From a virus, in IMG/VR virus record IMGVR_UViG_3300001849_000217, positions 1 to 37,858 of that record: 37,858 bases of DNA; one strand, written 5' to 3'. Within the stretch, counting starts at the first letter, position 1; the number at the start of each line of letters is the position of its first letter. Under the pieces are notes generated by a model. It saw only the letters and a list, made by a program, of their open reading frames with translations, was not told the DNA's origin and made no database searches. Below, piece after piece: positions 1 to 16,585 of this stretch. Both the position numbers and the translations under genes were made by a program.

Positions 1-1009
1 GTTTGTCGCGTCGTCGGACAGCGCGGGCAACTGGACGGTGATTGCCTACCAGAAGGCCAGCGGACAAGCTGTTGTGTCATCTGGTGGCGGTGGCTCGCCG
101 TCGCAGCCGCAGGGCCGGATCACACTGACGACCGCGACGCCAGTGCTAACGTCGACCGTGAGCGGGGCGGCGACGGTGTATTACACGCCGCATATCGGCC
201 AATACGTCCCGCTGTACAATGGGTCGACGTGGACCATGACAGATATCGGCGGCGAGCTGAGCCAGGCCACGACAGATGCCACTAAATCACCGGCCGCGTG
301 CGCGACGAACAGCAATTATGACTTGTTCGTGTGGTTGGACGGCAGCACGTACCGGTGCACGCGTGGTCCCGCGTGGACGTCGGACACGGCGCGCGGCGCG
401 GGTGCCGGCACGACCGAGCTTCAGATGCTCAATGGAATCTGGACCAACAAAAACGCAGTAACGAACGGGCCGGCGGCCAATCGCGGTACGTACGTCGGGA
501 CGATCCGCACAAACGGATCAAGTCTAGTTGATTGCATTATGCCGACCGCGAGCGCGAACGGCGGCACTGCGGGCGTAATCGGTATTTGGAACGCCTATAG
601 CCGCTCCGGTTGGACGGCAATGAATTTGGATTCCACGGACTCTTGGAGTTACACGACCGGCTCGTGGCGGCAATCCAACAACTCCGCCAACATGCAAACG
701 TCATGGATCACAGGCATCGCGGGCGACACGACGCTTGCTGTCGGCAACTGTTGGTGTACTGGGTCGGGCAACGGTCGTCTTGGAATTGGGTTTGACACGG
801 TATCTGCCCCGAGCGGCATCACCACTGCCGCAGTCGGACAAACCGGGAGCATCGTCGGCTCGACGACACTGCCAATGCGCGCGCCGATCGGCTGGCATTA
901 CTTCGCCTTGCTGGAATATGGCACCACGTCGCTGGTCTTCTACGGCGACAACGGGACGTTCGCATCGTCCGCCGTTCAATCTGGGCTCATCGTCAGCGGG
1001 ACGTTCTAA
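1..1009 (+). CDS. Tail fibre protein, C-terminal part (5' truncated by the window edge)
   Basis: The frame is open from base 2, and a GTG at 38 is only an internal codon, so this is the 3' part of a longer gene. A short Gly-rich linker (GGGGS-like) leads into a domain of about 280 residues. Its pattern (GRITLTT, VYYTP, YDLFVW, TRGPAW, NRGTYVGTIRT) is one I recognise from alphaproteobacterial tail-fibre C-termini. It is rich in Ser, Thr, Gly and aromatic residues, as in beta-structured trimeric fibres that bind the host surface. The stop TAA overlaps the ATG of the next gene (TAATG). It may be the end of the fibre that starts at 36202, but the frames do not match across a direct join. The fibre role is likely; receptor binding is inferred. 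Confidence 0.75.
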   Translation, partial: FVASSDSAGNWTVIAYQKASGQAVVSSGGGGSPSQPQGRITLTTATPVLTSTVSGAATVYYTPHIGQYVPLYNGSTWTMTDIGGELSQATTDATKSPAACATNSNYDLFVWLDGSTYRCTRGPAWTSDTARGAGAGTTELQMLNGIWTNKNAVTNGPAANRGTYVGTIRTNGSSLVDCIMPTASANGGTAGVIGIWNAYSRSGWTAMNLDSTDSWSYTTGSWRQSNNSANMQTSWITGIAGDTTLAVGNCWCTGSGNGRLGIGFDTVSAPSGITTAAVGQTGSIVGSTTLPMRAPIGWHYFALLEYGTTSLVFYGDNGTFASSAVQSGLIVSGTF

Positions 1010-1533
1010 TGGCTCTCACAGAAGCGATTGAAATTGTATGCCCCATTCACGGCGTTGCGATCGGCAGTCGCAACGACAGAAGGACGTGGCGCATCGACTA
1101 CAAGCCGGAAGCGACGGAACAGCAAAAAGCCGCTGCGCAAGCGGTCTTGCTTGCGTTCGACATCGACGCCCCGACTGCGGCCATGGTCGATGCCGAACGC
1201 GACCGGCGGCTGAATGCGTTTGCGTTCGGCGGTCGCCGATATGATTTTGACCCGGACAGTCAAACCAACATGACGGGAGCCGGCACGCTGGCGCTGGCCG
1301 CGATCATCTCGGGCAAACAGCCGGGTGATCTCAGATGGGCGGACCCAGATCGCGACTTCGGCTGGATCGCTGCCGACAACACTTTGGTGGCCATGGATGC
1401 GCAAACGACGATGGCGTTTGCGCAGGCGGCCGCGCACTGGAAATCGTCGCACATCATGATCGGGCGCGCGCTCAAAGACGCAACCCCAATTCCTGCGGAT
1501 TTTGCAAATGACGCACATTGGCCTGCACCGTGA
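1009..1533 (+). CDS. DUF4376 domain protein (tail-fibre-associated)
   Basis: This 174-residue protein ends in a DUF4376-like region. The visible blocks are DAERDRR near residue 63, GTLALAAIISGKQPGDLRW near 95, FGWIAADN, MDAQT and the closing RALKD. The N-terminal 60 residues are a variable head. Members of this family commonly lie directly downstream of tail-fibre genes, where an assembly-chaperone or small tail-protein role is suspected but not shown. The start ATG overlaps the fibre stop by one base, which suggests translational coupling. The exact role is unknown. Confidence 0.75.
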   Translation: MALTEAIEIVCPIHGVAIGSRNDRRTWRIDYKPEATEQQKAAAQAVLLAFDIDAPTAAMVDAERDRRLNAFAFGGRRYDFDPDSQTNMTGAGTLALAAIISGKQPGDLRWADPDRDFGWIAADNTLVAMDAQTTMAFAQAAAHWKSSHIMIGRALKDATPIPADFANDAHWPAP

Positions 1534-1732
1534 CGTCAAGGCCGCCGCGTTTGTCGATGACCTATCCCGAACCGCCGAGGAAATGCGGCGCAAGCAGCAG
1601 GCGGCCGAGGACGTGTCCGGCGACGTGCGGGAGCAGGTCAACATGCAGGGACGCGCGCTCGTTGCCATGGGGGATGAGATCATCAAGCTCAAGGCTGCGC
1701 TCGGCGCGCTGGCGCGGGAGGCGTCGAAATGA
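1508..1732 (+). CDS. Small coiled-coil hypothetical protein
   Basis: A 74-residue protein read from ATG 1508; a TTG at 1502 is a less likely start. It overlaps the end of the DUF4376 gene by 26 bases and the endolysin start by 4 bases (ATGA), so the cluster is tightly packed. It is highly charged, Ala- and Glu-rich, and probably one long helix with a late heptad-like stretch (IIKLKAALGALAREA). No signal peptide or membrane segment is visible. I do not recognise a family. Its position between fibre and lysis genes would fit a small tail or lysis accessory role, but nothing in the sequence decides it. Confidence 0.55.
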   Translation: MTHIGLHRDVKAAAFVDDLSRTAEEMRRKQQAAEDVSGDVREQVNMQGRALVAMGDEIIKLKAALGALAREASK

Positions 1733-2493
1733 AAATTTCATCTCGTGGCCTCGACATGATCAAAGAATTCGAGGGCTATCACCGCGCGCTGCCGGACGGC
1801 TCGTGCATCCCATACCGTTGCCCGGCTGGCGTCCTGACGATCGGCTACGGCTGCACCGAAAGCGTGCGGGAAGGCATGCGCTGGACCAAGGCGGACGCCG
1901 AGGCGCGCTTGCTCGGCGAACTGGAGAAGCACGAGGCCGCCGTCCAGCGCTACTCGACGACGGACCTCAACCAGAACCAGTTCGATGCGCTGGTGTCGTT
2001 TTCCTACAACCTCGGCACCGAGGCGTTGCGGCAATCGACGCTGCTCAAGAAGGTCAACGCGGGTCAGTGGGAGGCGGCGGGCCAGGAGTTCGGGCGCTGG
2101 ACCAAGGCTGCTGGCAAGGTGCTCCCCGGCCTCGTGGCGCGTCGCGGCAAAGAGGCGGCGCTGTTCCTAGAGCCGATTTCGGCGGCGATCGAGCCTGAGA
2201 TGCCGCAGAAGCTGGACCAGCCGGCGGACACCACACCGAACCCTCTCCACAAGTCCGGAACGATCTGGGGGGCGATCACGGCGGCCTTCGCCACGCTCAT
2301 CCACTACCTCGACGAAGGCACGAAAGCCGTCATTGAGTGGGTCGGCGCGATCGGCGATCTGGAGCCAGTTCGCGAAACCGCGATGAAGATCGGCGGCAAC
2401 GCCAAGGCGATCGGCCTTGGGCTCACGGTTGCCGGGATTGGCATCGTCGTGTCCCGCCGCGTGAAGGCCCACAATGAGGGTAAGGCAGGCTGA
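1729..2493 (+). CDS. Endolysin, GH24 lysozyme with hydrophobic C-terminal region
   Basis: It cleaves peptidoglycan (N-acetylmuramidase). The first 150 residues are a T4/P22-type GH24 lysozyme: Glu15 in the KEFEG block, Cys31 and Thr37 in the YRCPAGVLTIGYG block (the family triad is E, D or C, T), FSYN at 91-94 and GLVARR at 134-139. The Glu-to-Cys spacing is longer than usual, with an insertion around LPDGSCIP. After residue 150 a linker leads to two hydrophobic stretches, about 179-194 and 227-242, followed by basic residues, so the enzyme may be tethered to the inner membrane. There is no N-terminal signal or SAR segment. Spanin genes follow directly. The fold is confident; membrane anchoring is inferred. 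Confidence 0.9.
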   Translation: MKISSRGLDMIKEFEGYHRALPDGSCIPYRCPAGVLTIGYGCTESVREGMRWTKADAEARLLGELEKHEAAVQRYSTTDLNQNQFDALVSFSYNLGTEALRQSTLLKKVNAGQWEAAGQEFGRWTKAAGKVLPGLVARRGKEAALFLEPISAAIEPEMPQKLDQPADTTPNPLHKSGTIWGAITAAFATLIHYLDEGTKAVIEWVGAIGDLEPVRETAMKIGGNAKAIGLGLTVAGIGIVVSRRVKAHNEGKAG

Positions 2494-2495
2494 TC

Positions 2496-2756
2496 ATGGG
2501 ATTTCTGCTGGCCGGTCTCGGTCAATACGGGCTCATCGCGGCATTGATCGCGGGGCTTCTGGTGACTGTTGCAACGTGGCGTACCGTGGACGTGTCCAAA
2601 CAACGGGCCATCGGCGCACAAGCGGCTGTGGCCAAGATCGAGGCGAAAACCAATGAAGCTCTCAACGCTGGCCGCGCGGCTGCCGAAAAGTCTCGCGCTG
2701 CTCCCGTGCCTGTTCCTCGGCGCATGTCAAAGCCCGCCCCAGGCTACGCCGATTGA
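2496..2756 (+). CDS. Rz-like inner-membrane spanin subunit
   Basis: An 86-residue protein with one N-terminal membrane segment (about residues 4-26, LLAGLGQYGLIAALIAGLL) and then a periplasmic helical region rich in Ala, Lys and Glu. This is the topology of an i-spanin, which links the inner membrane to the outer-membrane lipoprotein partner for the last step of lysis. It is much shorter than lambda Rz (153 residues). The gene starts 2 bases after the endolysin stop and its 3' half is overlapped in another frame by the Rz1-like lipoprotein, the classic Rz/Rz1 layout. The call rests on topology and position, not on sequence similarity. Confidence 0.65.
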   Translation: MGFLLAGLGQYGLIAALIAGLLVTVATWRTVDVSKQRAIGAQAAVAKIEAKTNEALNAGRAAAEKSRAAPVPVPRRMSKPAPGYAD

Positions 2757-2943
2757 CCAGATGAAGTTGATCCGGGAATTGCCACGGGTGAAGAATAGCG
2801 CGGCGGCCCCGTGCCGGCTGCAGAAGGAAATTGCGGAACAGCAGAGCTACCTCGCCGCCGTCGAGGCCGCGGCCGCGGGCAAGAGCAAGCCTCCCGTCAT
2901 CGTCGCGCAATGCGGAGCCGATAAGCCGAAGGCGACCTCATGA
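2653..2943 (+). CDS. Rz1-like outer-membrane spanin lipoprotein
   Basis: Read from ATG 2653, the protein has 96 residues with a lipoprotein signal: basic start (MKLSTLAARLPK), hydrophobic core, and lipobox LGAC with the lipidated cysteine at residue 25. It would be the outer-membrane half of the spanin complex. The start lies inside the Rz-like gene in a different frame and the gene runs 187 bases past it. A longer in-frame reading from 2569 puts an unrelated stretch before the signal and is rejected. The mature part has two more cysteines and few prolines, so it is not a typical proline-rich Rz1, but the lipobox and overlap are clear. Confidence 0.75.
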   Translation: MKLSTLAARLPKSLALLPCLFLGACQSPPQATPIDQMKLIRELPRVKNSAAAPCRLQKEIAEQQSYLAAVEAAAAGKSKPPVIVAQCGADKPKATS

Positions 2944-3204
2944 ATGCCTCAACGCCCACACGAATTGCTGATGGAATCGTTCTCGCTCGAAACCGATCGG
3001 CGCTTGACGCGGATCGAGGTGCACCAGGAGCACCGGGAGGAGAGCAACGAGACCTACAAGGAGCGGGCCGACAAGCGCCTCGACGCAATCGAGAAGCGCA
3101 TGTCGCTTCACGAGCGGGCTATCCTGGCCATCGCGGGCATCCTTCAAGTGATCTTGCAAGACAAGTATCCCAAGCTCGCCGCGATCTTGAAGGGGCTGCT
3201 GTGA
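2944..3204 (+). CDS. XhlA-like membrane protein, possible holin accessory
   Basis: An 86-residue protein starting right after the stop of the lipoprotein gene. Residues 12-57 form a strongly charged coiled coil (RRLTRIEVHQEH, RLDAIEKRMS) and the C-terminus is hydrophobic (AILAIAGILQVIL, then AAILKGLL). A coiled coil followed by a C-terminal membrane segment is the architecture of the XhlA/hemolysin family linked to phage lysis. A cytoplasmic coiled coil with a tail anchor is predicted. It may help or replace a classical holin, since no other multi-pass holin is obvious here. The family assignment is tentative. Confidence 0.55.
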   Translation: MPQRPHELLMESFSLETDRRLTRIEVHQEHREESNETYKERADKRLDAIEKRMSLHERAILAIAGILQVILQDKYPKLAAILKGLL

Positions 3205-3281
3205 GCCCGCAATTCAATGTCGGCTTGGCGGTGATTGCGGCGATGGCACTCGGCTCGCTGCTGTATCATCTGGTGTTTTGA
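3201..3281 (+). CDS. 26-residue single-pass membrane microprotein
   Basis: A GTG start at 3201 overlaps the previous stop (GTGA), giving a 26-residue peptide dominated by one hydrophobic helix (LAVIAAMALGSLLYHLVF). It is the last rightward gene before the convergent leftward operon and overlaps its end by 16 bases. Translational coupling plus a membrane segment at the end of a lysis cassette suggests a small holin or pinholin-like peptide. Its size prevents any family call, and it could be fortuitous. Confidence 0.4.
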   Translation: MSPQFNVGLAVIAAMALGSLLYHLVF

Positions 3282-3484
3282 AGCGGCGACTTTCGCGGCT
3301 CACTCATGCGGATGGTCGCCGCGATTGTCTTGACCAGCAGGTCACGCGCCTCAATAATCGACCCCGCCTTGTTCGGGCCGGTCCAGTACAATGAAGGAGG
3401 CTCTGGCCATGGTAGCGTCGACAAGTATTTATCAAGCGCTCTGACCACGCACTCGGCTGTCATTGCTGCATCGTCGTCTTTCAT
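3266..3484 (-). CDS. Hypothetical protein at the end of the leftward operon
   Basis: A 72-residue acidic-start protein (MKDDDAAMTAE) with a central WPEPPSLYW segment. ATG at 3484 overlaps the NusG-like stop by one base; GTG at 3487 is an alternative. It is the last gene of the leftward operon and meets the lysis cassette tail to tail, with a 16-base overlap. A weak imperfect hairpin (3282-3300) lies in this junction without a T-run, so I see no clear terminator. Family unknown. Confidence 0.5.
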   Translation of the reverse strand: MKDDDAAMTAECVVRALDKYLSTLPWPEPPSLYWTGPNKAGSIIEARDLLVKTIAATIRMSEPRKSPLQNTR

Positions 3485-3960
3485 CACGCCGCCTCCACCA
3501 TTGCCTCGTCTACGCGCTGTTCGAAAGTCCTACCGAACATCTCCACGTCGATTACCACCTTGCCGGCCTCCAGCCGCTTGAACAAGACTGAGAGTTCGGC
3601 GCGCGCCCCGCGCTTCATGCGCAAGGCTTGCCCCGGCGTGAACCGCTCCGGTTCGGCCTCGACTTCCGCCAGCACCCGCATGGCGTGAAGCTCTGCTGAT
3701 GTGACGGTGGCATATCGATCACCGATGCGCATCACGCCGACGACAGCGGGCATCAACTCCCTGACGTAGTCCCATTGGTCGAAAATCTTGGCGTCGGCGA
3801 AGGCGTAGCAGGGGAGAACGGCGCGCGTCTCCTTGGATTTCTTGCCATTCCGCACCACGCGCACAGTCTGCTCAGGCGCTCGCGCATCGATGCCGAGGCG
3901 CACAAGCGCCTCCCGTACTACGATCTCGGATCGATACCGCACGCGGAGGGCGTACCACAT
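3484..3960 (-). CDS. NusG/RfaH-family transcription elongation factor (phage paralogue)
   Basis: A 158-residue protein with NusG architecture. The N-terminal NGN domain spans about residues 1-105 (WYALRVRYRSE at the start, an R-rich strand, LPCYAFADAK in the place of the family's P-G-Y-x-F block). The C-terminal KOW-type domain is about residues 106-158 (FTPGQALRMKRGA, then VVIDVEMFGR, close to the NusG pattern of V-x-I-FGR). Such proteins bind RNA polymerase and change pausing and termination. The start ATG overlaps the previous stop (TGATG); a longer reading from 4194 has no family resemblance. The gene sits in the leftward early operon with replication genes. It probably acts on phage transcription, but specificity and target sites are unknown. 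Confidence 0.8.
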   Translation of the reverse strand: MWYALRVRYRSEIVVREALVRLGIDARAPEQTVRVVRNGKKSKETRAVLPCYAFADAKIFDQWDYVRELMPAVVGVMRIGDRYATVTSAELHAMRVLAEVEAEPERFTPGQALRMKRGARAELSVLFKRLEAGKVVIDVEMFGRTFEQRVDEAMVEAA

Positions 3961-4295
3961 CAAGCACCGCCTTTCTGAGCCATTGCGCGTTGCCACGGGA
4001 ACAACACGGCCTGCTCTTTCCCGTAGAACGCCTCCAGCATCATCTTTTCTTGATGCTTGCGGAGGTTGGCGGCGGCCTTGCGCATCATCGCGTCCGTTTC
4101 GGCCTCCAGCGCCTGGCGCCAATCGGCGTCGGACATCTGCGTGATGATGCCCGTGCCGGTATCCACACTGTACATCGGCGGCTTTGCCTGACACGCGACG
4201 AACGTCGCGATCTCCTCATCGAGTGAGGAGGCGTGTATTGCCTGATCCCGCTCGATGCGGGCCATGATGCGGTCTCTGAATTGGTCGGGGCTCAT
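3960..4295 (-). CDS. Hypothetical helical protein
   Basis: A 111-residue protein from ATG 4295, preceded on the minus strand by a strong ribosome site (GGAGGG five bases upstream). A longer reading from 4343 ignores that site. It is mostly helical and charged: MSPDQFRDRIMARIERDQ at the N-terminus, a DADWRQALEAETDAMMRKAAANL stretch (split here around residue 60), and a C-terminal FYGKEQAVLFPWQRA. It is coupled to the NusG-like gene by a one-base overlap, so the two are probably made in similar amounts. No family is recognised. Confidence 0.6.
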   Translation of the reverse strand: MSPDQFRDRIMARIERDQAIHASSLDEEIATFVACQAKPPMYSVDTGTGIITQMSDADWRQALEAETDAMMRKAAANLRKHQEKMMLEAFYGKEQAVLFPWQRAMAQKGGA

Positions 4296-4296
4296 G

Positions 4297-4452
4297 TCAT
4301 CCCTCCTGTTGCAGCAGCCAGCACCCGACGGCGACCATTCCAACCGGCCCCATCATGTGCGTAAACGATATCCACCCGGCGCCCGCCGTCAGGAAGATGA
4401 GCACGGCGCCGACGATGACCTCAGCCGCGCCTATGGCTTCGGTCCAGGTCAT
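4297..4452 (-). CDS. 51-residue membrane protein
   Basis: A small protein with two hydrophobic helices: residues about 9-24 (AAEVIVGAVLIFLTAG) and 31-48 (THMMGPVGMVAVGCWLL). The start ATG overlaps the stop of the preceding 52-residue gene (ATGA) and the stop lies one base before the next gene's start, so it fits the operon perfectly. An AGGA lies about five bases upstream. Two-helix phage membrane peptides of this size are often of unknown function; a role in superinfection or membrane remodelling would be speculation. Confidence 0.55.
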   Translation of the reverse strand: MTWTEAIGAAEVIVGAVLIFLTAGAGWISFTHMMGPVGMVAVGCWLLQQEG

Positions 4453-4607
4453 GCTGTCCTGTTCTTCCGGTATCCGGCTTCCTTGCGGTCGGCCGCTTTC
4501 TTCGCTCCGATGCGCTTAGACACGTCGCGGTAAGCCTTCGCAGGCTCGACGCGAGTCCTGCCGCCTTTGGTGGCGAGCTTTGCTTTGCCGATGGATTTGG
4601 TTGCCAT
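4449..4607 (-). CDS. 52-residue highly basic protein
   Basis: A short Lys/Arg-rich protein (MATKSIGKAKLATKGG, then KRIGAKKAADRKEAGYRKNR), predicted pI very high, with no cysteines and no hydrophobic core. It may bind nucleic acid. The ATGA overlap with the next gene and a weak AAGGG ribosome site support it being translated. It lies in the leftward early operon. The family is unknown; the DNA- or RNA-binding suggestion rests only on charge. Confidence 0.5.
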   Translation of the reverse strand: MATKSIGKAKLATKGGRTRVEPAKAYRDVSKRIGAKKAADRKEAGYRKNRTA

Positions 4608-4611
4608 GTGC

Positions 4612-4896
4612 TTATCCCTTGCGCTTGAGCCGTTGATAGATTGACTCGGCTTCTTTTATCAGTTGCGACTCTGATTTAGACCTGTCCGATACGACGTGCA
4701 TTCCGCGCTCGCTGATTTCCAAAATCGGCGGACTGTCAGGGTACTGGCGTTCTTCCAGCAGTCCCAAATCAAGCAGCGTAGCGATGTCGCTATCACTGGC
4801 TTGCGCCATGACCAGGCCACGCCCAACGGCGGTGATGCCGTCTTCCGTCAATCTTCCAAAAAGCGCATAGGCACTAGCTAAATCTGTCTCTGCCAT
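4612..4896 (-). CDS. Putative small winged-helix-like protein
   Basis: A 94-residue protein. ATG 4896 has AAAGG eight bases upstream; a GTG at 4905 would overlap that site and is less likely. The order of elements (helix DLASAYALFGRLTEDG, then TLLDLGLLEERQY, then strand-like PPILEISERGMHVV) resembles the helix-helix-wing pattern of winged-helix DNA-binding proteins, where a 'LGLLE...LxLTxxG' motif is typical. The C-terminal 25 residues form a charged helix. DNA binding is an inference from pattern only. Confidence 0.5.
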   Translation of the reverse strand: MAETDLASAYALFGRLTEDGITAVGRGLVMAQASDSDIATLLDLGLLEERQYPDSPPILEISERGMHVVSDRSKSESQLIKEAESIYQRLKRKG

Positions 4897-4897
4897 T

Positions 4898-5203
4898 TCA
4901 GCCACCTTTCTTCGCGATCTTGAGGAGAACGAGGTATCCGATCAGGTCTGTGATCGTGTCTTCGCCCGCGTCTCGCCCGCGCATAAGCCGAGACAACTTG
5001 TCGTCGATGCGGACCTTGATTTGCTCGACCGCATCGGCCTTGGAGAAGCATCGCAGCGGGTCGAGCGCGCTGTTGCCGTAGGCGAGGTTTTTCGAGATCA
5101 GCATCGAGGCGATCTCGCCGCAGACTATCTCAACCTGCTGCGCAAATGCGCTCACAGCGTCGCCTGGAGCGGTTGTCTGCTGGAGTGTTAATGTAGCGGC
5201 CAT
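4898..5203 (-). CDS. DUF1599 / nucleotide-modification-associated (Nmad1-like) protein
   Basis: A 101-residue all-helical protein. The diagnostic stretch is in the C-terminal two thirds: KNLAYGNSALDPLR, then DAVEQIKVRIDDKLSRL, then EDTITDLIGYLVLL. This matches the DUF1599 pattern ('YGNS', 'QIKVRxDDKLxRL', 'EDTxxDLxGYLxL'), a family called nucleotide modification associated domain 1. Similar small helical proteins act on nucleotides, but no biochemical role is firm. It is in the same operon as a DNA methyltransferase and a replication initiator, which fits DNA or nucleotide metabolism. Confidence 0.75.
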   Translation of the reverse strand: MAATLTLQQTTAPGDAVSAFAQQVEIVCGEIASMLISKNLAYGNSALDPLRCFSKADAVEQIKVRIDDKLSRLMRGRDAGEDTITDLIGYLVLLKIAKKGG

Positions 5204-5216
5204 CCCTCAAATCCTC

Positions 5217-5459
5217 TTAGAAGCCTGTGGGAACAAGGTTCGCGGGGCATTTGAAAGTCTCACACGGGGCGCTGATCGCCTTGATGCGCACGAACTGGCG
5301 GTTTGCCGTGCAATCGAGCAGGTCGCGCAGGTCGGAAACCTCAATCAGCACTTTCGTGTCATGCCGCTGCGCTTTCGCATGAGCGGCAACTACGGCTCGG
5401 TAGTAGTCCAGGCGTTCCGGCGTCACGATCACCCTCCGATCAAATCCGATATTCCCCAT
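5217..5459 (-). CDS. Hypothetical protein downstream of the methyltransferase
   Basis: An 80-residue protein starting inside the 3' end of the methyltransferase gene (31-base overlap), with GGAG four bases before the ATG. It starts [21 protein letters not shown] and ends in a Cys-containing tail ([14 protein letters not shown]). The mid-part ([15 protein letters not shown]) looks like a strand-helix unit. No family is recognised. Its overlap suggests it is co-translated with the methyltransferase. Confidence 0.5.
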
Positions 5460-6163
5460 GGCGCTCCGATCTCAAGGGCAAGTTGCTTGGGCATTGCGGG
5501 CTGTTCCACGAACAAGTCCGGCTGGCGGTAAGCCTCCTCGATGCGCCGACAGGCGATGTCGAAGTACCGCTCTTCGATCTCGATCCCGATGAACTTCCGG
5601 CCGAGCTTCACACAGGCAACGCCTGTCGTGCCGGAGCCCATGAAAGGGTCGAGAATGGTGTGGCCTCGCGTTTTCTCAATGCACCACGCCATGAGCGGAA
5701 CCGGCTTTTGCGTCGGGTGCTCGCGGGTCTTTGCCTCCGCCATCATTGACATATCGCGAAAGCAGTAGACGCCGTGACCTCGTGAAAACCAGGCCGTCTC
5801 GGCGTCCGATAGAAATGATCCGAATGCTGCGTCAAGGCGCTTAATCCAAATCAGACATGCGCCTTTAGGTAAGCGGTCCGGGAAGTTGTTCCAGCCCCAA
5901 ATGATTTGCTCTCCACCCAGAAGAAATGGGCTTGGATCAAAATCCCGATCGTCCTCGTGTATCGGCGCCCCGTAGTCTTTGCCTGTCCCGCGGCGGGCAC
6001 GGCTGGCTTGTTCTCCCCCGCTAAACCTTGTGCCATTCGTATTAAGCGAAATCCCATAGGGCGGGTCTGTCACCACGGCATCGACCTTCCCGACAGTCGG
6101 CAAAATTTCCCTGCAATCCCCCAGATAGAGCGTGCAGGCACCGATTGTCTCAATCCGGCTCAT
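5429..6163 (-). CDS. Beta-class DNA methyltransferase (N6-adenine or N4-cytosine)
   Basis: A 244-residue S-adenosylmethionine-dependent DNA methylase. The catalytic motif DPPY is at residues 33-36, HPTQKP at 149-154, and the cofactor motif DPFMGSGTT at 172-180, followed by [14 protein letters not shown]. Catalytic motif before cofactor motif is the beta-class order of amino-methyltransferases. A target-recognition segment would lie between residues 40 and 130. No restriction enzyme is next to it, so it is probably an orphan enzyme that protects phage DNA or tunes gene expression. The recognition sequence cannot be read from the protein. The start overlaps the previous stop (ATGA). Confidence 0.92.
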
Positions 6164-6363
6164 ATCTCGCTCTCCAAAATCGAAACCTTCGGCAGTGTGA
6201 TCGGCTGGCCCCGGGAGTCCGTGAGAGGCTTGCGGGGAGGGATTTCTCGCTCGGGAGGGGAAAAGCGCCGGGCAAGCAGCGCGCGGCGTTCCTCGGTCTC
6301 GATCCGCGCCTTCGAGCGCTTGACAGCTTTCCGCCAGTCCAGGCCTTGGCCGCGCTTGGTCAA
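6160..6363 (-). CDS. Small basic hypothetical protein
   Basis: A TTG at 6363 overlaps the preceding stop (TTGA) and gives 67 residues; a further TTG at 6393 would add 10. The protein is Arg/Lys-rich and probably helical in the middle ([22 protein letters not shown]), with a proline-rich C-terminal part ([14 protein letters not shown]). It overlaps the methyltransferase start by 4 bases. There is no clear ribosome site, only a G-rich run upstream, so translation probably depends on coupling. No family is recognised. Confidence 0.5.
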
Positions 6364-6803
6364 TTTTTGCCCCCGGACGCTACTTGCCCCCAATTGCGAT
6401 CCAGGCGCCGACTACGCGCGAGCGCAGCATCCACGCTGCCGTGCTCGCGCGCGGCCGTCTCGCGCCACTCCGCGGCTAGGCGGTAGCGCTCATTCTGGGT
6501 CGACCAGTGGTCCATAAGGCTGCGATCCGGCATCAGATCGGAAACGTTCGAGTAGTTGGCCCCGGCCATGATCCGACGCTTGGCTGCATGGATGCAGTGC
6601 GTGCGCAGAATCGAGGAAAACCCCTCGGTCTCGGCCCGCTTCACCCAAGGGTGGCTATGGAAGTGTGCCGACCATTGCCCGCTGGCGATGATGCGCTTGC
6701 CGTGCAGTGGGTGTCCCGGCTTGACCTCGGCATCGCGTAGCCCGCACACGAACACCCTCGCCATGAAATCCGCCTTGTCCGGCGTCATCTGATCGATTTG
6801 CAT
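6360..6803 (-). CDS. Hypothetical protein of the replication operon
   Basis: A 147-residue protein (ATG 6803; GTG 6806 also possible, both overlapping the previous stop). Visible features are a His-rich stretch [12 protein letters not shown] near residue 48, a Cys-His segment [10 protein letters not shown] near 69, and a basic C-terminal half with [14 protein letters not shown]. The His and Cys residues could bind a metal, but spacing does not match a known finger that I can name. It directly follows the replication initiator gene, so a replication-linked role is possible. Confidence 0.55.
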
Positions 6804-7726
6804 CACGAGAGCCCCATTTCACGGGCGATCTGTTCGAGGTATTCCGAGCTGCCGGGGGCCGGGCCACGGCGCTGCGGGATCGTGATCGGCTTCGGGGTCG
6901 TGTGCCGGCCGTTGCCGTAGCCGCCATCATGGACTTTGGCGAAGCTCGACGGCTGGAGCAGGAATTCGAGATCGGCCCGCCAGCCGCGATCGTTCGTGCC
7001 GGTCAGGAAGCTCGATCGCTCGATGTTGGCCAGGGCCTTCGACCAGCCGTCCGAGCCGTAGTCGCGAAGCCGGGCGACGATCTTGCGCTTCCGGTCGGGG
7101 GTGAACTTTGCCGCCTGGGGCAAGCCGCAGCGAAGGGCGGTTGCGTTGTAGGCCTCGAAAGCTGTCAAAGCCTCGAAAGGGGTCGGACCCCCGCTAGGGG
7201 GTAAGGGGGTATCTTCTTTTTCTTTTAGTCCTAAATCATAGTCCTTAGTCGCGCGTAGAAAACATTGAGTTTTTTCGACGCGACTGGGGGGGTAACTAGG
7301 GGGGGTATCTTGGGTAGTTGCTGGGGTAGCAACTTGGTGGGTTACCCCTACGGGAACCTCATTATCTTCCCGCTCGCATCCCGGATCGGCTTCCCGATCG
7401 GGGCGTTCTTCGGCCTGGGCGGAATGCTTGGAATTGGCTTGCGCGGCTTTCTTACGCTCGATTTCGATCCGGTCGTTGCCGTAGCCGTTTTCATGGCGCT
7501 TGATCTTCCCCGACATCAAGAGTTGGCCCAAAACCTTGCGATATTGGTTGACGTTCATTCCGCCGAGCATCTTGGCGGCTTGACTGTCATCGAGCGGCAC
7601 GCGCCGACCGGTCTCGCCGATGAACATGCATATGCGGATGTAAAGCCCTTCCTGCTCAATCGAGAGCCCGAGGCAGCCAGAGCGCCAAGCGGAAGGGTAC
7701 ATGCGGACGAATGCAGGGCCGCTCAT
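6803..7726 (-). CDS. Replication initiator-like protein, DUF1376 N-terminus
   Basis: A 307-residue protein. Residues about 8-95 match the DUF1376/YdaU type (YPSAWRSGCLGLSIEQEGLY, a helix pair, then MSGKIKRHENGYGNDRI), a winged-helix-like domain found at the N-terminus of phage replication proteins. A low-complexity linker (about 95-170) leads to a C-terminal domain (AFEAYNATALRCGLP, RKRKIVARLRDYG, WRADLEFLLQPSSFAKV) like that of phage O-type initiators. It probably binds the phage origin and recruits the host helicase. The ATG has AGGAGG seven bases upstream. No helicase loader gene is obvious next to it. Confidence 0.75.
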   Translation of the reverse strand: MSGPAFVRMYPSAWRSGCLGLSIEQEGLYIRICMFIGETGRRVPLDDSQAAKMLGGMNVNQYRKVLGQLLMSGKIKRHENGYGNDRIEIERKKAAQANSKHSAQAEERPDREADPGCEREDNEVPVGVTHQVATPATTQDTPPSYPPSRVEKTQCFLRATKDYDLGLKEKEDTPLPPSGGPTPFEALTAFEAYNATALRCGLPQAAKFTPDRKRKIVARLRDYGSDGWSKALANIERSSFLTGTNDRGWRADLEFLLQPSSFAKVHDGGYGNGRHTTPKPITIPQRRGPAPGSSEYLEQIAREMGLS

Positions 7727-7800
7727 GCCACGGCCTCCTGACGACGACGGAACGGGGAAAATCTAGCGCTTGCCTTGTCATCGCCGAATTTGTTGCGCAT
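7723..7800 (-). CDS. 25-residue leader ORF before the replication gene
   Basis: An ATG at 7800 with GGAGG four bases upstream opens a 25-codon frame (MRNKFGDDKASARF..., Arg-rich end) whose stop overlaps the start of the replication gene (ATGA). The ribosome site is one of the best in the operon. It may be a translated leader that couples or tunes expression of the initiator, or a real microprotein. It is too short for a family call. Confidence 0.45.
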   Translation of the reverse strand: MRNKFGDDKASARFSPFRRRQEAVA

Positions 7801-7832
7801 AGTACCTCCGTTCCTGAAGTCCGACCTTGTTT

Positions 7833-7865
7833 GAACCCCGCCGCGCAGGCCGCCCGGCGGGGTTC
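7833..7865 (-). promoter_or_regulatory. GC-rich perfect hairpin in the leftward leader
   Basis: An 11-bp perfect inverted repeat (GAACCCCGCCG at 7833-7843 with CGGCGGGGTTC at 7855-7865, 11-base loop) lies 32 bases before the leader ORF of the leftward operon. No T-run follows on either strand, so it is not a complete intrinsic terminator. It may be a pause, attenuator or processing site. Confidence 0.5.
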
Positions 7866-8124
7866 GCCGTTGAATGGTCCGGTGGACGCGCCGATTTGAC
7901 GGTACGGGATTGACCTACCTGCTCCCGCATCGACGCTCTCTGCTGGACGCCACCGGTCGCCCAGGCGTGATGAGCAGGCAGGCAACTGAAACTCAGTCAC
8001 ATGGCTGGAGGCGTGGGACCGGTCGGCTGAAATCGCGCTGGAGAGTTGTCGCAAAATCGCCACCACGCCTCCGGCGATGGGGCCGGAGCACGCAAATCAA
8101 CGCTACGGGACTGGAACCAAAAGG
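7866..8124. other. Gene-free stretch in the leftward leader
   Basis: Between the two hairpins I find no convincing gene. Open frames on either strand here lack ribosome sites and family features. The region would be transcribed as untranslated leader if transcription from the Cro-like promoter reads through. It could hold a second promoter for the replication operon, but no good -35/-10 pair stands out. Confidence 0.35.
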
Positions 8125-8159
8125 CCGGGCGCGCGTCAGGTCTGGGGCCGCGCGCCCGG
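8125..8159 (-). terminator. Terminator-like hairpin after the Cro-like gene
   Basis: An 11-bp perfect stem (CCGGGCGCGCG at 8125-8135 with CGCGCGCCCGG at 8149-8159) lies about 40 bases past the stop of the Cro-like gene on the minus strand. On that strand it is followed by CCTTTTGG, a weak T-tract. It may be a partial terminator that separates the regulator from the replication operon. Confidence 0.45.
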
Positions 8160-8196
8160 AAGTTTCCGGCAGGAGATGTTGCCGGGTCTGGGAAAC

Positions 8197-8484
8197 TTAC
8201 GCTGCCGCGCAGGAGGCACGGCGCCGCTTGGGTGCCGACTGCGATGGGAACAGCATGGCCCAATCATCGTCCGACATGCCGAACACCTGCGGGTCGATGG
8301 TCTTCCCGCGGCGCCGACATTCGGCGATCATCTTCACGTGCCATCCTCTCGGGATGTATTCCCTGATCTTCCAATTGCTGACCGCCTCTTGGGTGATCCC
8401 AAGCTGGGCAGCGACGACGGACGGGCCGCCGAGGAACGTGATCAGGCCGTCGATGGTGTCGATTTCGTACATGACCGGTTGCAT
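8197..8484 (-). CDS. Cro-like helix-turn-helix regulator
   Basis: A 95-residue protein with a Cro-type HTH at about residues 12-50: GGPSVVAAQLGITQEAVSNW (helix 2, turn, recognition helix), then REYIPRGWHVKMIAECRRRG. The pattern of a GG-P start, an A-x-x-L-G-I turn and the following IP-x-x-W is that of short phage Cro-like repressors. The C-terminal tail is basic (PKRRRAS). AGGA lies six bases before the ATG. It is transcribed divergently from the XRE repressor and opens the leftward early operon, the position of cro. DNA binding is confident; the lytic role is inferred. Confidence 0.8.
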   Translation of the reverse strand: MQPVMYEIDTIDGLITFLGGPSVVAAQLGITQEAVSNWKIREYIPRGWHVKMIAECRRRGKTIDPQVFGMSDDDWAMLFPSQSAPKRRRASCAAA

Positions 8485-8579
8485 ATCACGTCCTGTTATT
8501 TATCGCAAGCAGGGTGCCGTTATTCGCCGTGGATAACCCAATGTGATATGAGAGGCGAAGCTCGGAGGGCTCAATCCAA
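8485..8579. promoter_or_regulatory. Divergent control region (operators) between Cro-like and XRE genes
   Basis: This 95-base region must hold both divergent promoters. Two kinds of symmetry are visible. CATATCAC (8482-8489) and GTGATATG (8543-8550) form a perfect inverted pair placed symmetrically about position 8516. GTTAT (8519-8523) and ATAAC (8533-8537) form a 19-bp dyad, and a further GTTATT at 8495-8500 repeats its left arm. These are candidate repressor operators. Exact -35/-10 boxes are not clear. Confidence 0.55.
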
Positions 8580-8873
8580 ATGGCGTTGAAGATCGATCCC
8601 GAGGACACCGGAAAGTTGCAGGCGGATGTGGCGCGGCGCCTGATCCGAACGAGGTCCGCGTTGGGATTCGATCAACGGACGTTCGGAGAGCAGGCCGGGC
8701 TATCGCAGCCGCAATACAACCAATACGAGCAAAAGAGACTACTGACACTGCGCGCCGCCTTGCTACTGTGCGAACGCTACAACCTCACGCTCGACTGGAT
8801 TTACCGGGGCGACCCGAGCGGTCTGCCCTATCGAATGGTCGAGGCGATCAACAAAGTGCGCACAGCGGCGTAA
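8580..8873 (+). CDS. XRE-family repressor (CI-like)
   Basis: A 97-residue protein with an XRE/lambda-repressor HTH: helix RRLIRTRSALGF, helix TFGEQAGLS, recognition helix QPQYNQYEQ, then a helix TLRAALLLCERYNL and the typical closing LDWIYRGDPSGLP. It has no C-terminal peptidase domain, so induction would not be by RecA-driven self-cleavage. GGAGGG lies ten bases before the ATG. It is divergent from the Cro-like gene, and together they look like the lysogeny switch. Which of the two keeps lysogeny is inferred from the layout. Confidence 0.8.
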   Translation: MALKIDPEDTGKLQADVARRLIRTRSALGFDQRTFGEQAGLSQPQYNQYEQKRLLTLRAALLLCERYNLTLDWIYRGDPSGLPYRMVEAINKVRTAA

Positions 8874-8894
8874 ACCTACCTGGAGGATATGCGA

Positions 8895-9152
8895 ATGTTG
8901 AAGATCGTTTCCGCAATAGGGTTGATAGTGGCTTGCGCCGGCACTGCAGCGGCTCAGACGCACGTGAACGGCTACACCACGAAGAACGGCACTTATGTTG
9001 CCCCACACGTTCGTTCGGCGCCGAACAGTACGCCGACGGACAACTACGGGGTGCGGCCGAACGTGAACCCGTACACCGGCCAAGCGGGCACCCGCGCGCC
9101 CACGCCGAGCTATGGCGTTCCGCCTCTTCCAAGCCCCTACGCGACGAAGTAG
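8895..9152 (+). CDS. Small secreted protein, likely lysogenic passenger
   Basis: An 85-residue protein from ATG 8895 (GGAGG eight bases upstream; an in-frame ATG at 8889 is too close to it). Residues 1-20 are a signal peptide (IVSAIGLIVACAGTAAAQ, cut after AAA or AQ). The mature part carries the motif VNGYTTKNGTYVAPHVRSAP, then NYGVRPNVNPYTGQAGT, seen in many small secreted proteobacterial proteins of unknown role. It sits right behind the repressor and before a terminator, so it should be made in the prophage state. This is the position of a cargo gene. An effect on the host envelope is only a guess. Confidence 0.75.
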   Translation: MLKIVSAIGLIVACAGTAAAQTHVNGYTTKNGTYVAPHVRSAPNSTPTDNYGVRPNVNPYTGQAGTRAPTPSYGVPPLPSPYATK

Positions 9153-9179: not shown

Positions 9180-9209
9180 AACGCCTCAATCACGGGGCGT
9201 TATTTTTTT
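9180..9209 (+). terminator. Intrinsic terminator after the repressor operon
   Basis: AACGCC (9180-9185) pairs with GGCGTT (9196-9201), extended by a G-T pair, and is followed by a seven-T run (9203-9209). It is a standard rho-independent terminator for the repressor and secreted-protein transcript. Confidence 0.8.
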
Positions 9210-9212
9210 GGG

Positions 9213-9241
9213 TTGACGTATCACGGATTGTTATTTACAAC
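9213..9241 (+). promoter_or_regulatory. Predicted promoter for the rightward early operon
   Basis: TTGACG (9213-9218), a 17-base spacer, and TACAAC (9236-9241) match the sigma-70 consensus at 5/6 and 4/6 bases with ideal spacing. It follows the terminator directly and points at the DUF6948-like gene. Transcription would start near 9247-9249. Confidence 0.6.
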
Positions 9242-9248
9242 TCGCCTC

Positions 9249-9325
9249 ATCACCGGGGCGCTGCAACGTCCTCCAATGCCGGGTTTGCCCACCCGGTTCG
9301 CTCACTCCCGCAGCGCCCCGGTGAT
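9249..9325 (+). ncRNA. Highly structured RNA leader element
   Basis: A perfect 16-bp inverted repeat (ATCACCGGGGCGCTGC at 9249-9264, GCAGCGCCCCGGTGAT at 9310-9325) encloses a second hairpin (CCGGGT 9279-9284, ACCCGG 9291-9296). The outer stem begins where the predicted promoter would start RNA, and the element ends 23 bases before the ATG at 9349. It has no T-run, so it is not an intrinsic terminator. It could be a 5'-stabilising structure, a put-like antitermination RNA, a cis-regulator or a separate small RNA. The fold is read directly from sequence; the role is unknown. Confidence 0.6.
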
Positions 9326-9348
9326 CGGACAACAAGAGGCGGCATCAA

Positions 9349-9648
9349 ATGGCAAAAGCACCGACACCACCCAAAGGCAGACCCGTCCTGGTCACTACCG
9401 AATATCGCGGCGTGTTTTTCGGTTACGCCGACGACACGTCAGGCGACACGATCAAGCTCAATCGGGCCCGTAATATCCCGTATTGGGATGCGTCGGTGAA
9501 AGGTTTCCTCGGCCTTGCTGAGAGGGGGCCAAGCAAAGCGTGCCGCGTCGGCCCCGCAGCGGACATCGAGCTTCGCAAAATCACTTGCGTTGCGGAATGC
9601 ACGAAAGTCGCTGTCGAGGCATGGGAGTCGGCACCATGGCGGTCGTGA
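9349..9648 (+). CDS. DUF6948-like phage protein
   Basis: A 99-residue soluble protein: RPVLVTTEYRGVFFGYADDT at the N-terminus, then IKLNRARNIPYW, VKGFLGLAERGP, and a C-terminal ITCVAECTKVAVEAWESAPW. I recognise this as a small family (DUF6948-like) common in phages of Proteobacteria and of unknown role. It is the first gene after the structured leader and overlaps the next gene by 13 bases. Beta-rich in the first half, helical at the end. Confidence 0.65.
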   Translation: MAKAPTPPKGRPVLVTTEYRGVFFGYADDTSGDTIKLNRARNIPYWDASVKGFLGLAERGPSKACRVGPAADIELRKITCVAECTKVAVEAWESAPWRS

Positions 9649-10055
9649 TCCTGCGCGGTCAGATGCCGAGCCTCGCCGACGGCTACGGCTACGGCTACGG
9701 CTACGGCTACGGCTTCGGCGACGGCTACGGCTTCGGCTATGGCGACGGCCTCGGCTACGGCTCCAACTACGGCGACGGCTCCGGCGACGGCTACGGCTCC
9801 GGCTTCGGCTACGGCGTTGGCCGCTACGGCTACAGCTACAGCGACGGCTATGGCGACGGCTATGGCGACGGCGACGGCGACGGCTCCGGCCTCGGCTACG
9901 GCTTCGGCACCGACGACGGCTCCGACGACGGCTCCGACGACGGCTCCGGCCTCGGCCTCGGCCTCGGCTATGGCGACGGCTATGGCGACGGCTCAGGCTA
10001 CGGCCTCGGCTATGGCGACGGCTATGGCGACGGCTCAGGCTACGGCAAGAAATAG
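9636..10055 (+). CDS. Gly-Tyr-Asp repeat protein
   Basis: A 139-residue protein. A 14-residue head (MAVVILRGQMPSLA) is followed by about 120 residues that alternate Gly with Tyr, Asp, Ser, Phe or Leu (GYGYGYGYG, GDGYGDGDGDGSG, DDGSDDGSDDGSG, GYGDGYGDGSGYG), ending KK. In DNA this is a hexamer pattern with GGC every second codon. The ATG 9636 fits the overlap with the previous gene; a longer reading from 9540 adds an unrelated Arg-rich head. The chain is probably disordered; Tyr-Gly and Asp-rich blocks could drive condensation or bind cations. No enzyme motif. The function is unknown, but the conserved-looking head suggests it is a real gene. Confidence 0.7.
   Translation: MAVVILRGQMPSLADGYGYGYGYGYGFGDGYGFGYGDGLGYGSNYGDGSGDGYGSGFGYGVGRYGYSYSDGYGDGYGDGDGDGSGLGYGFGTDDGSDDGSDDGSGLGLGLGYGDGYGDGSGYGLGYGDGYGDGSGYGKK
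9679..10048 (+). repeat. Hexanucleotide-like coding repeat tract
   Basis: Tandem GGCTAC, GGCGAC and related hexamers make up most of the Gly-Tyr-Asp gene. A larger unit near GGCTATGGCGACGGC recurs several times around 9846-9872 and 9964-10031. Such tracts change length by slippage without breaking the frame when whole hexamers are gained or lost. Confidence 0.8.
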
Positions 10056-10386: not shown

Positions 10387-10392
10387 CCCAAC

Positions 10393-10453
10393 ACCATCCC
10401 GGAGGGCTGGGATGGTCAGCGGAGCGGGTCGAGCGGGGTAAGGCCCGCTCCGC
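10393..10453 (+). promoter_or_regulatory. Two adjacent hairpins between early genes
   Basis: ACCATCCC (10393-10400) pairs with GGGATGGT (10409-10416), and GCGGAGCGGG (10419-10428) pairs with CCCGCTCCGC (10444-10453). Both stems are perfect, with only two bases between the hairpins. No T-run follows, so a processing, stability or pausing role is more likely than intrinsic termination. Confidence 0.55.
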
Positions 10454-10483
10454 AATCTCTCATCACGTCAGCGAGTAGGCACC

Positions 10484-16509: not shown

Positions 16510-16585
16510 GGGGACGTAGCTCAGTGGTAGAGCACTCGCTTGACATGCGAGGGGTTCGCAGGTTCAATCCCTGCCGTCCCCACCA
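16510..16585 (+). tRNA. tRNA-Val (anticodon GAC)
   Basis: A complete cloverleaf: acceptor GGGGACG with CGTCCCC, D-arm GCTC/GAGC, anticodon stem CTCGC/GCGAG with loop TTGACAT (anticodon GAC, reads GUC and GUU), T-arm GCAGG-TTCAATC-CCTGC, and an encoded 3' ACCA. It lies between two inverted HTH genes. It may be a phage tRNA or an integration target carried whole in attP. Confidence 0.93.

Follow-up and report, generated by a model that had tools for sequence, protein, structure and literature searches.

What is the role of the long, perfectly paired RNA stem with which an early transcript of this temperate phage appears to begin? Our analysis of the window, i.e. the whole stretch of 37,858 nucleotides (IMG/VR virus record IMGVR_UViG_3300001849_000217), points to a conserved leader RNA of early transcription that acts in cis; its role is most likely put-like, although it is no member of the put family. 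It draws on two related phages, IMGVR_UViG_3300047402_000037 (L002/L028, here L028) and IMGVR_UViG_3300001849_000281 (L027/L117, here L117). As L028 bridges the ends of the window, from 37858 to 1, over about 1.4 kb, the window covers the greater part of a genome that is circular or circularly permuted and measures about 39 kb.

Two regulatory genes diverge in the early region. One is Cro/YdaS-like (8197-8484, minus strand; PF14549/PF15943, below gathering threshold) and opens the opposite early transcript; the other, repressor-like and of the HTH_3 family (8580-8873, plus strand), gives way to different HTH_3 genes in L028 and L117. Leftward lie replication genes, including one for an O/DnaD-like protein. 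The rightward region comprises, in this order, a small gene (8889-9152, plus strand), an intrinsic terminator detected by the terminator scan, which ends the transcript of this gene (9180-9201, plus strand), the promoter and leader discussed below, a DUF6948 gene (9349-9648, plus strand; PF22253, E = 5e-21), a Gly-Tyr repeat ORF, and genes for Erf, a YqaJ exonuclease and an integrase. This gene set gives the transcript that would begin at the leader the content of a lambda PL operon, with DUF6948 as its first gene. The repeat ORF (9540-10055, plus strand) encodes a highly repetitive Gly-Tyr/Gly-Asp sequence without a family match and overlaps the end of the DUF6948 gene. Between integrase and terminase, a complete tRNA-Val (GAC) gene (16510-16585, plus strand) is either phage-borne or part of an attachment site.

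The leader itself is a 77-nt element on the plus strand (9249-9325), in which the 5' arm ATCACCGGGGCGCTGC (9249-9264) pairs with the 3' arm GCAGCGCCCCGGTGAT (9310-9325) in 16 of 16 positions, 45 nt apart. It is the sole pair of fully complementary (100%) arms of at least 13 nt within 120 nt in the whole window. Among 200 genomes simulated at the length of the window by a first-order Markov process, none contained a perfect inverted repeat of at least 16 bp with a gap of at most 100 nt, and 12 contained one of at least 14 bp. The arms enclose an inner hairpin (9278-9297) with a 7-bp stem (9278-9284/9291-9297) and the loop TTGCCC, and the minimum free energy of the whole element, -53.8 kcal/mol, corresponds to a z-score of -6.28, none of 200 dinucleotide shuffles being equally stable. 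The initial annotation, made on the letters of the window, had described just such a stem with a second hairpin inside it, too long to be due to chance, without a T-run and fitting no named class known to the annotator, and our results bear it out on each point. Directly after the stem follows CGGACAACAAG, which contains no T-run, unlike an intrinsic terminator or attenuator, and the scan's only nearby terminator is that at 9180-9201. Rfam 15, searched at the gathering threshold, contains no family matching the leader, the window's only match being the tRNA-Val gene; in a relaxed scan (E up to 5) the leader was likewise without a match save for a chance overlap on the antisense strand from 9329.

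A free-standing small RNA, which had also been considered, is unlikely, because no terminator follows the leader and a Shine-Dalgarno-like GAGGCGG (9336-9342, plus strand) begins only 11 nt beyond the end of the stem, which leaves both this sequence and the start codon uncovered. Three further candidates were rejected: sequestration of the Shine-Dalgarno sequence by GCCTC (9244-9248) in a fold of 9240-9340, as these bases lie upstream of or at the +1 position and are not conserved; a leader peptide from an ATG near 9276, as its reading frame shifts between the phages through indels; and a transient early hairpin involving the 5' arm, which is weak in L117.

In front of the stem, a predicted sigma-70-type promoter, TTGACG-17-TACAAC (9213-9241, plus strand), which would be the equivalent of PL, puts the +1 position at 9248/9249. 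It is weak by consensus, scoring under the cut-off of the promoter tool and going unreported in the scans, and therefore requires independent support. This is provided by the operator-like sequence ATCACGGATTGTTATTTA (9220-9237, plus strand), which overlaps the promoter and matches a second copy, ATCACGTCCTGTTATTTA (8485-8502, plus strand), between the cro-like and repressor genes. Repeats of this kind are shared between the promoter and the phage's own repressor/cro region in L028 and L117 as well, and their sequences differ among the three phages; they measure 18 nt in the window, 25 nt in L028 and 21 nt in L117, with equally good matches in 0, 0 and 4 of 500 shuffles, respectively. The simplest reading of these sequence matches is that the repeats are operators, and that the promoter is an early promoter under control of the phage repressor. 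In the relatives, the promoters read TTGACA-18-TATTGT (L028) and TTGACA-17-CATAGT (L117) and lie at the same distance from the stem as in the window; in all three phages the predicted +1 either coincides with the start of the stem or precedes it by one position. The promoter is present as initially described, and unrelated promoters in two further phages agree with a stem that begins at the predicted start. On the cro side of L028 (11275-11330, minus strand), there is a promoter with the -10 hexamer TATTGT and an operator in common with the right promoter; its predicted start adjoins the cro ATG, whereby cro may be leaderless.

How has this leader been maintained? L028 is nearly identical to the window across 1-7871 and from 9248 on, with a different repressor/cro/promoter region in between, and L117 has a third immunity region and, directly behind the leader, a homologue of gene 10072 replacing DUF6948. 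Similarity to the window restarts at 9248 in L028 and at 9249 in L117, that is, around the predicted +1. Over the 726 bp from 9248 to 9973, window and L028 differ at 12 positions, none of them outside 9265-9317. The two internal loops account for ten of these; the other two, in the 3' arm, convert U-A to U-G and G-C to G-U with pairing kept. As the 656 nt that follow are identical, the two leaders are separate, diverged versions. From L117 the window's leader differs in the internal loops and at one pairing-neutral stem base (9317), with a further difference at 9345, past the element. Among the three phages, the 5' arm has the same letters, the 3' arm varies by 9312 A>G and 9317 C>T with G-U pairs retained, and the inner stem, the apical loop and the 19-nt linker that contains the Shine-Dalgarno sequence show no change at all. 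All 69 of 69 pair cells in the three-phage alignment are standard, and a model built on the leader (R1) scores 130, 125 and 130 bits in the three phages. Two-sided compensatory changes are absent from these three sequences, and covariation consists of the two one-sided wobble changes.

This comparison of sequences establishes the 77-nt element as a conserved noncoding RNA structure at the predicted 5' end of an early transcript. That it serves an early transcript under repressor control as a conserved and structured 5' leader is well supported, the start being a predicted one. It was retained through exchanges on both sides, of repressor, operator and promoter in front of it and of the first gene behind it, so that the fold itself probably has a job, and the invariance of the inner stem and apical loop points to recognition rather than stability alone.

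The early region holds further structured elements. On the opposite early transcript, a conserved element (8000-8096, minus strand) has 17-nt arms (8079-8063 and 8016-8000) 46 nt apart and occurs in all three phages, in a position like that of putR; its fold is less striking than that of the leader (z about -2), and local alignment of the two scores at the level of shuffled sequences, with no sequence in common. An alternative hairpin, CTCCGG/CCGGAG, has one arm in common with its long stem. Directly preceding it, after the cro-like gene, is a terminator-like hairpin, t1 (8120-8165, minus strand), which in L028 is of other sequence, still with a stem and the T-rich tail TCTTTG; in all three phages a terminator-like hairpin separates the opposite early promoter from the replication genes. 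A third conserved noncoding element (10389-10476, plus strand; z = -3.55) lies on the same transcript as the leader and consists of two adjacent hairpins (10393-10416 and 10419-10453). It aligns to L117 with a single 1-nt gap, in the midst of genes that share about 59-75% identity. A further contig (L238), which stems from the window's phage, starts exactly at 10387. Just before a small ORF, there is a strong hairpin at 7833-7865 (minus strand; z = -3.8), of which L028 keeps a 10-bp stem with shifted pairing.

Does the leader belong to the gene behind it? The initial annotation correctly placed it before a DUF6948-like gene and a Gly-Tyr repeat gene, and proposed that the stem be sought upstream of DUF6948 homologues. 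There it is absent at all other readable IMG/VR loci, some of which (L017, L015) have a promoter immediately before the gene, and in L117 the leader precedes a different gene. The link to DUF6948 was consequently dropped, and with it the gene as the partner against which the stem could be refuted: by its distribution, the leader travels with the early promoter of this phage group, not with DUF6948. Two other phages have 13-bp perfect nested stems downstream of DUF6948 (L003, 3653-3710; L014, 3544-3597). Searches for further carriers with the stem pattern gave 57 matches in IMG/VR and 31 in GTDB contigs, which beyond the two relatives (L027/L117, L002/L028) were all judged on reading to be due to chance, and no prophage carrier was among the GTDB matches. 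For the pattern of the 5' arm, 80 of 114 stretches were checked for a pairing 3' arm and yielded no new relatives. Across 397 genomes from a single alphaproteobacterial order, model R1 gave no match, and neither did the protein of gene 10072 in 385 genomes of the class, the leader and both other elements in INPHARED, or the leader in PLSDB. In the searched collections, the leader is thus carried by three phages only. Two apparent further relatives (L116, L238) turned out to be fragments of the window's own phage, and a match to the pattern of the left element (L244), without similarity to the window, was due to chance.

A precedent for an RNA in this position is provided by the put sites of phage HK022. 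The put RNA causes antitermination in cis through the zinc-binding domain of β', without phage proteins. We located putL and putR in HK022 and confirmed them via the annotation of phage O276, which places putR between cro and cII. Of the two sites, each about 70 nt long with two stem-loops, putL follows PL closely, and about 270 nt separate putR from PR (PMC9378689). The likeness to the present phages is considerable: the leader, within the same range of about 70-77 nt, is conserved, noncoding and located at the 5' end (by the predicted start) of a repressor-controlled PL transcript, a second structured element follows past cro on the opposite early transcript (8000-8096), and no dedicated phage protein is evident. 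However, the leader is a nested stem with an inner hairpin in all three phages and put consists of two adjacent stem-loops; moreover, putL and putR are related in sequence, whereas the two elements here are not. A covariance model (R2) built from eight put sites, among them those of O276, which carries HK022 putL/putR, recognizes HK022 putL with 94.9 bits and putR with 66.5 bits, but in the window, L028 and L117 its best match reaches about 12 bits (E = 0.34), away from the leader; conversely, the leader model does not match the put sites. Put sites that lack a put annotation were also noticed (L247, L248, L249, L252, L253), the phages concerned being Enterobacter phage CobraSix, Salmonella phage S9-5, Pantoea phage PdC23 and Erwinia phage phiEt88. 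Of the initial suggestion of a put-like RNA, the position downstream of a repressor-controlled promoter thus stands, and sequence, covariance model and fold speak against it. As judged from these, the leader shares no descent with the put sites; it may nevertheless act like one, a possibility that rests on its position, on its conservation and on the terminator of the opposite transcript.

How could such a leader act? We propose, tentatively and with somewhat less than even confidence, that by analogy to put it promotes processivity. Once about 80 nt have emerged, the nascent leader would fold and act in cis on the very RNA polymerase that has just made it, rendering it more processive, i.e. 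resistant to pausing and termination along the long PL operon. In sequence and fold, such an antitermination RNA would be unrelated to HK022 put, and the 8000-8096 element may likewise serve the replication genes on the opposite early transcript. This proposal is supported by the two elements occupying the positions of putL and putR, and by homology between phages of different immunity regions restarting at the predicted +1. In the plus strand downstream of the leader, up to 20,000, we found no convincing intrinsic terminator, which leaves the need for antitermination on the leader transcript unproven.

The main rival to put-like processivity, improbable in our estimate, is a stabilizing function, whereby the stem at the predicted start would lengthen the life of the early mRNA. 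That 5'-terminal stem-loops can stabilize mRNAs is established, as references within PMC3997798 indicate. As in ompA-type leaders, a 16-bp stem with no more than one unpaired nucleotide ahead of it would impede the removal of pyrophosphate and attack by RNase E from the 5' end. With the stem-loops of ompA and papA, the leader has in common a strong stem no more than one nucleotide from the predicted start: in all three phages, +1 is either the stem's first base or its immediate neighbour upstream, which leaves zero or one nucleotide unpaired, and a pairing of 0.87-1.0 was calculated for the third and fourth nucleotides, although that of the first is weak (0.08-0.5). For stabilization, though, a stem would suffice, yet here the inner hairpin, apical loop and 19-nt downstream linker are also invariant in all three phages. 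The invariant linker, together with the mere 11 nt between stem and GAGGCGG, would suit a post-transcriptional control of the first gene, in which the leader hairpin, like that of the lambda N leader with its RNase III site, is cleaved or bound by a protein just upstream of the Shine-Dalgarno sequence and so sets the translation of this gene. As Shine-Dalgarno sequence and start codon are outside the stem, the first gene is not the same across the phages, and a perfect stem of 16 bp is short for RNase III, we consider this quite unlikely.

The lambda system offers a further parallel in nutL and nutR with the RNase III hairpin of the N leader, which like the elements here are structured RNAs in the PL and PR leaders, before the first gene or past cro. 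In a nut-like site, the inner hairpin in this leader of a lambda-like early operon would correspond to boxB, and the CGCTC that follows it in the window and L028 to boxA, together binding a phage antiterminator protein and host Nus factors. But CGCTC is not conserved (TTCTCAC in L117) and lies 3' of the hairpin, on the wrong side for the order of a nut site, neither operon layout opens with a small N-like gene, and no N-like protein, as lambda nut would demand, was recognized among the scanned early gene products, which makes a nut-like site very unlikely. Finally, the palindrome might be conserved as DNA, being a junction at which immunity cassettes are exchanged by homologous recombination; the phage encodes an Erf recombinase, and upstream homology ends exactly at the element. 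We give this reading scarcely any credence, since the stems are kept while the internal loops diverge and change length between window and L028 despite the 656 identical nt that follow, and since the changes in the stem spare pairing in RNA, by G-U pairs, but break the palindrome in DNA.

Where does this leave put-like processivity in the wider biology of phages? To our knowledge, RNA-only antitermination in phages is essentially limited to HK022-type put sites of enterobacterial phages. In the temperate phages described here, RNA-only processive antitermination might come in a second class, independent of the first, with a nested stem at the 5' end of the PL transcript and, past cro, a partner unrelated to it, both acting on the host polymerase without a phage protein; as it stands, we regard this as unlikely. 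If true, a structurally unrelated element in the same place in unrelated phages would mean that the control of early transcripts by their own nascent RNA arose more than once. Even if the leader were a stabilizer, it would still clearly exemplify a leader RNA that survives the exchange of immunity modules, with a role that a simple reporter can test.
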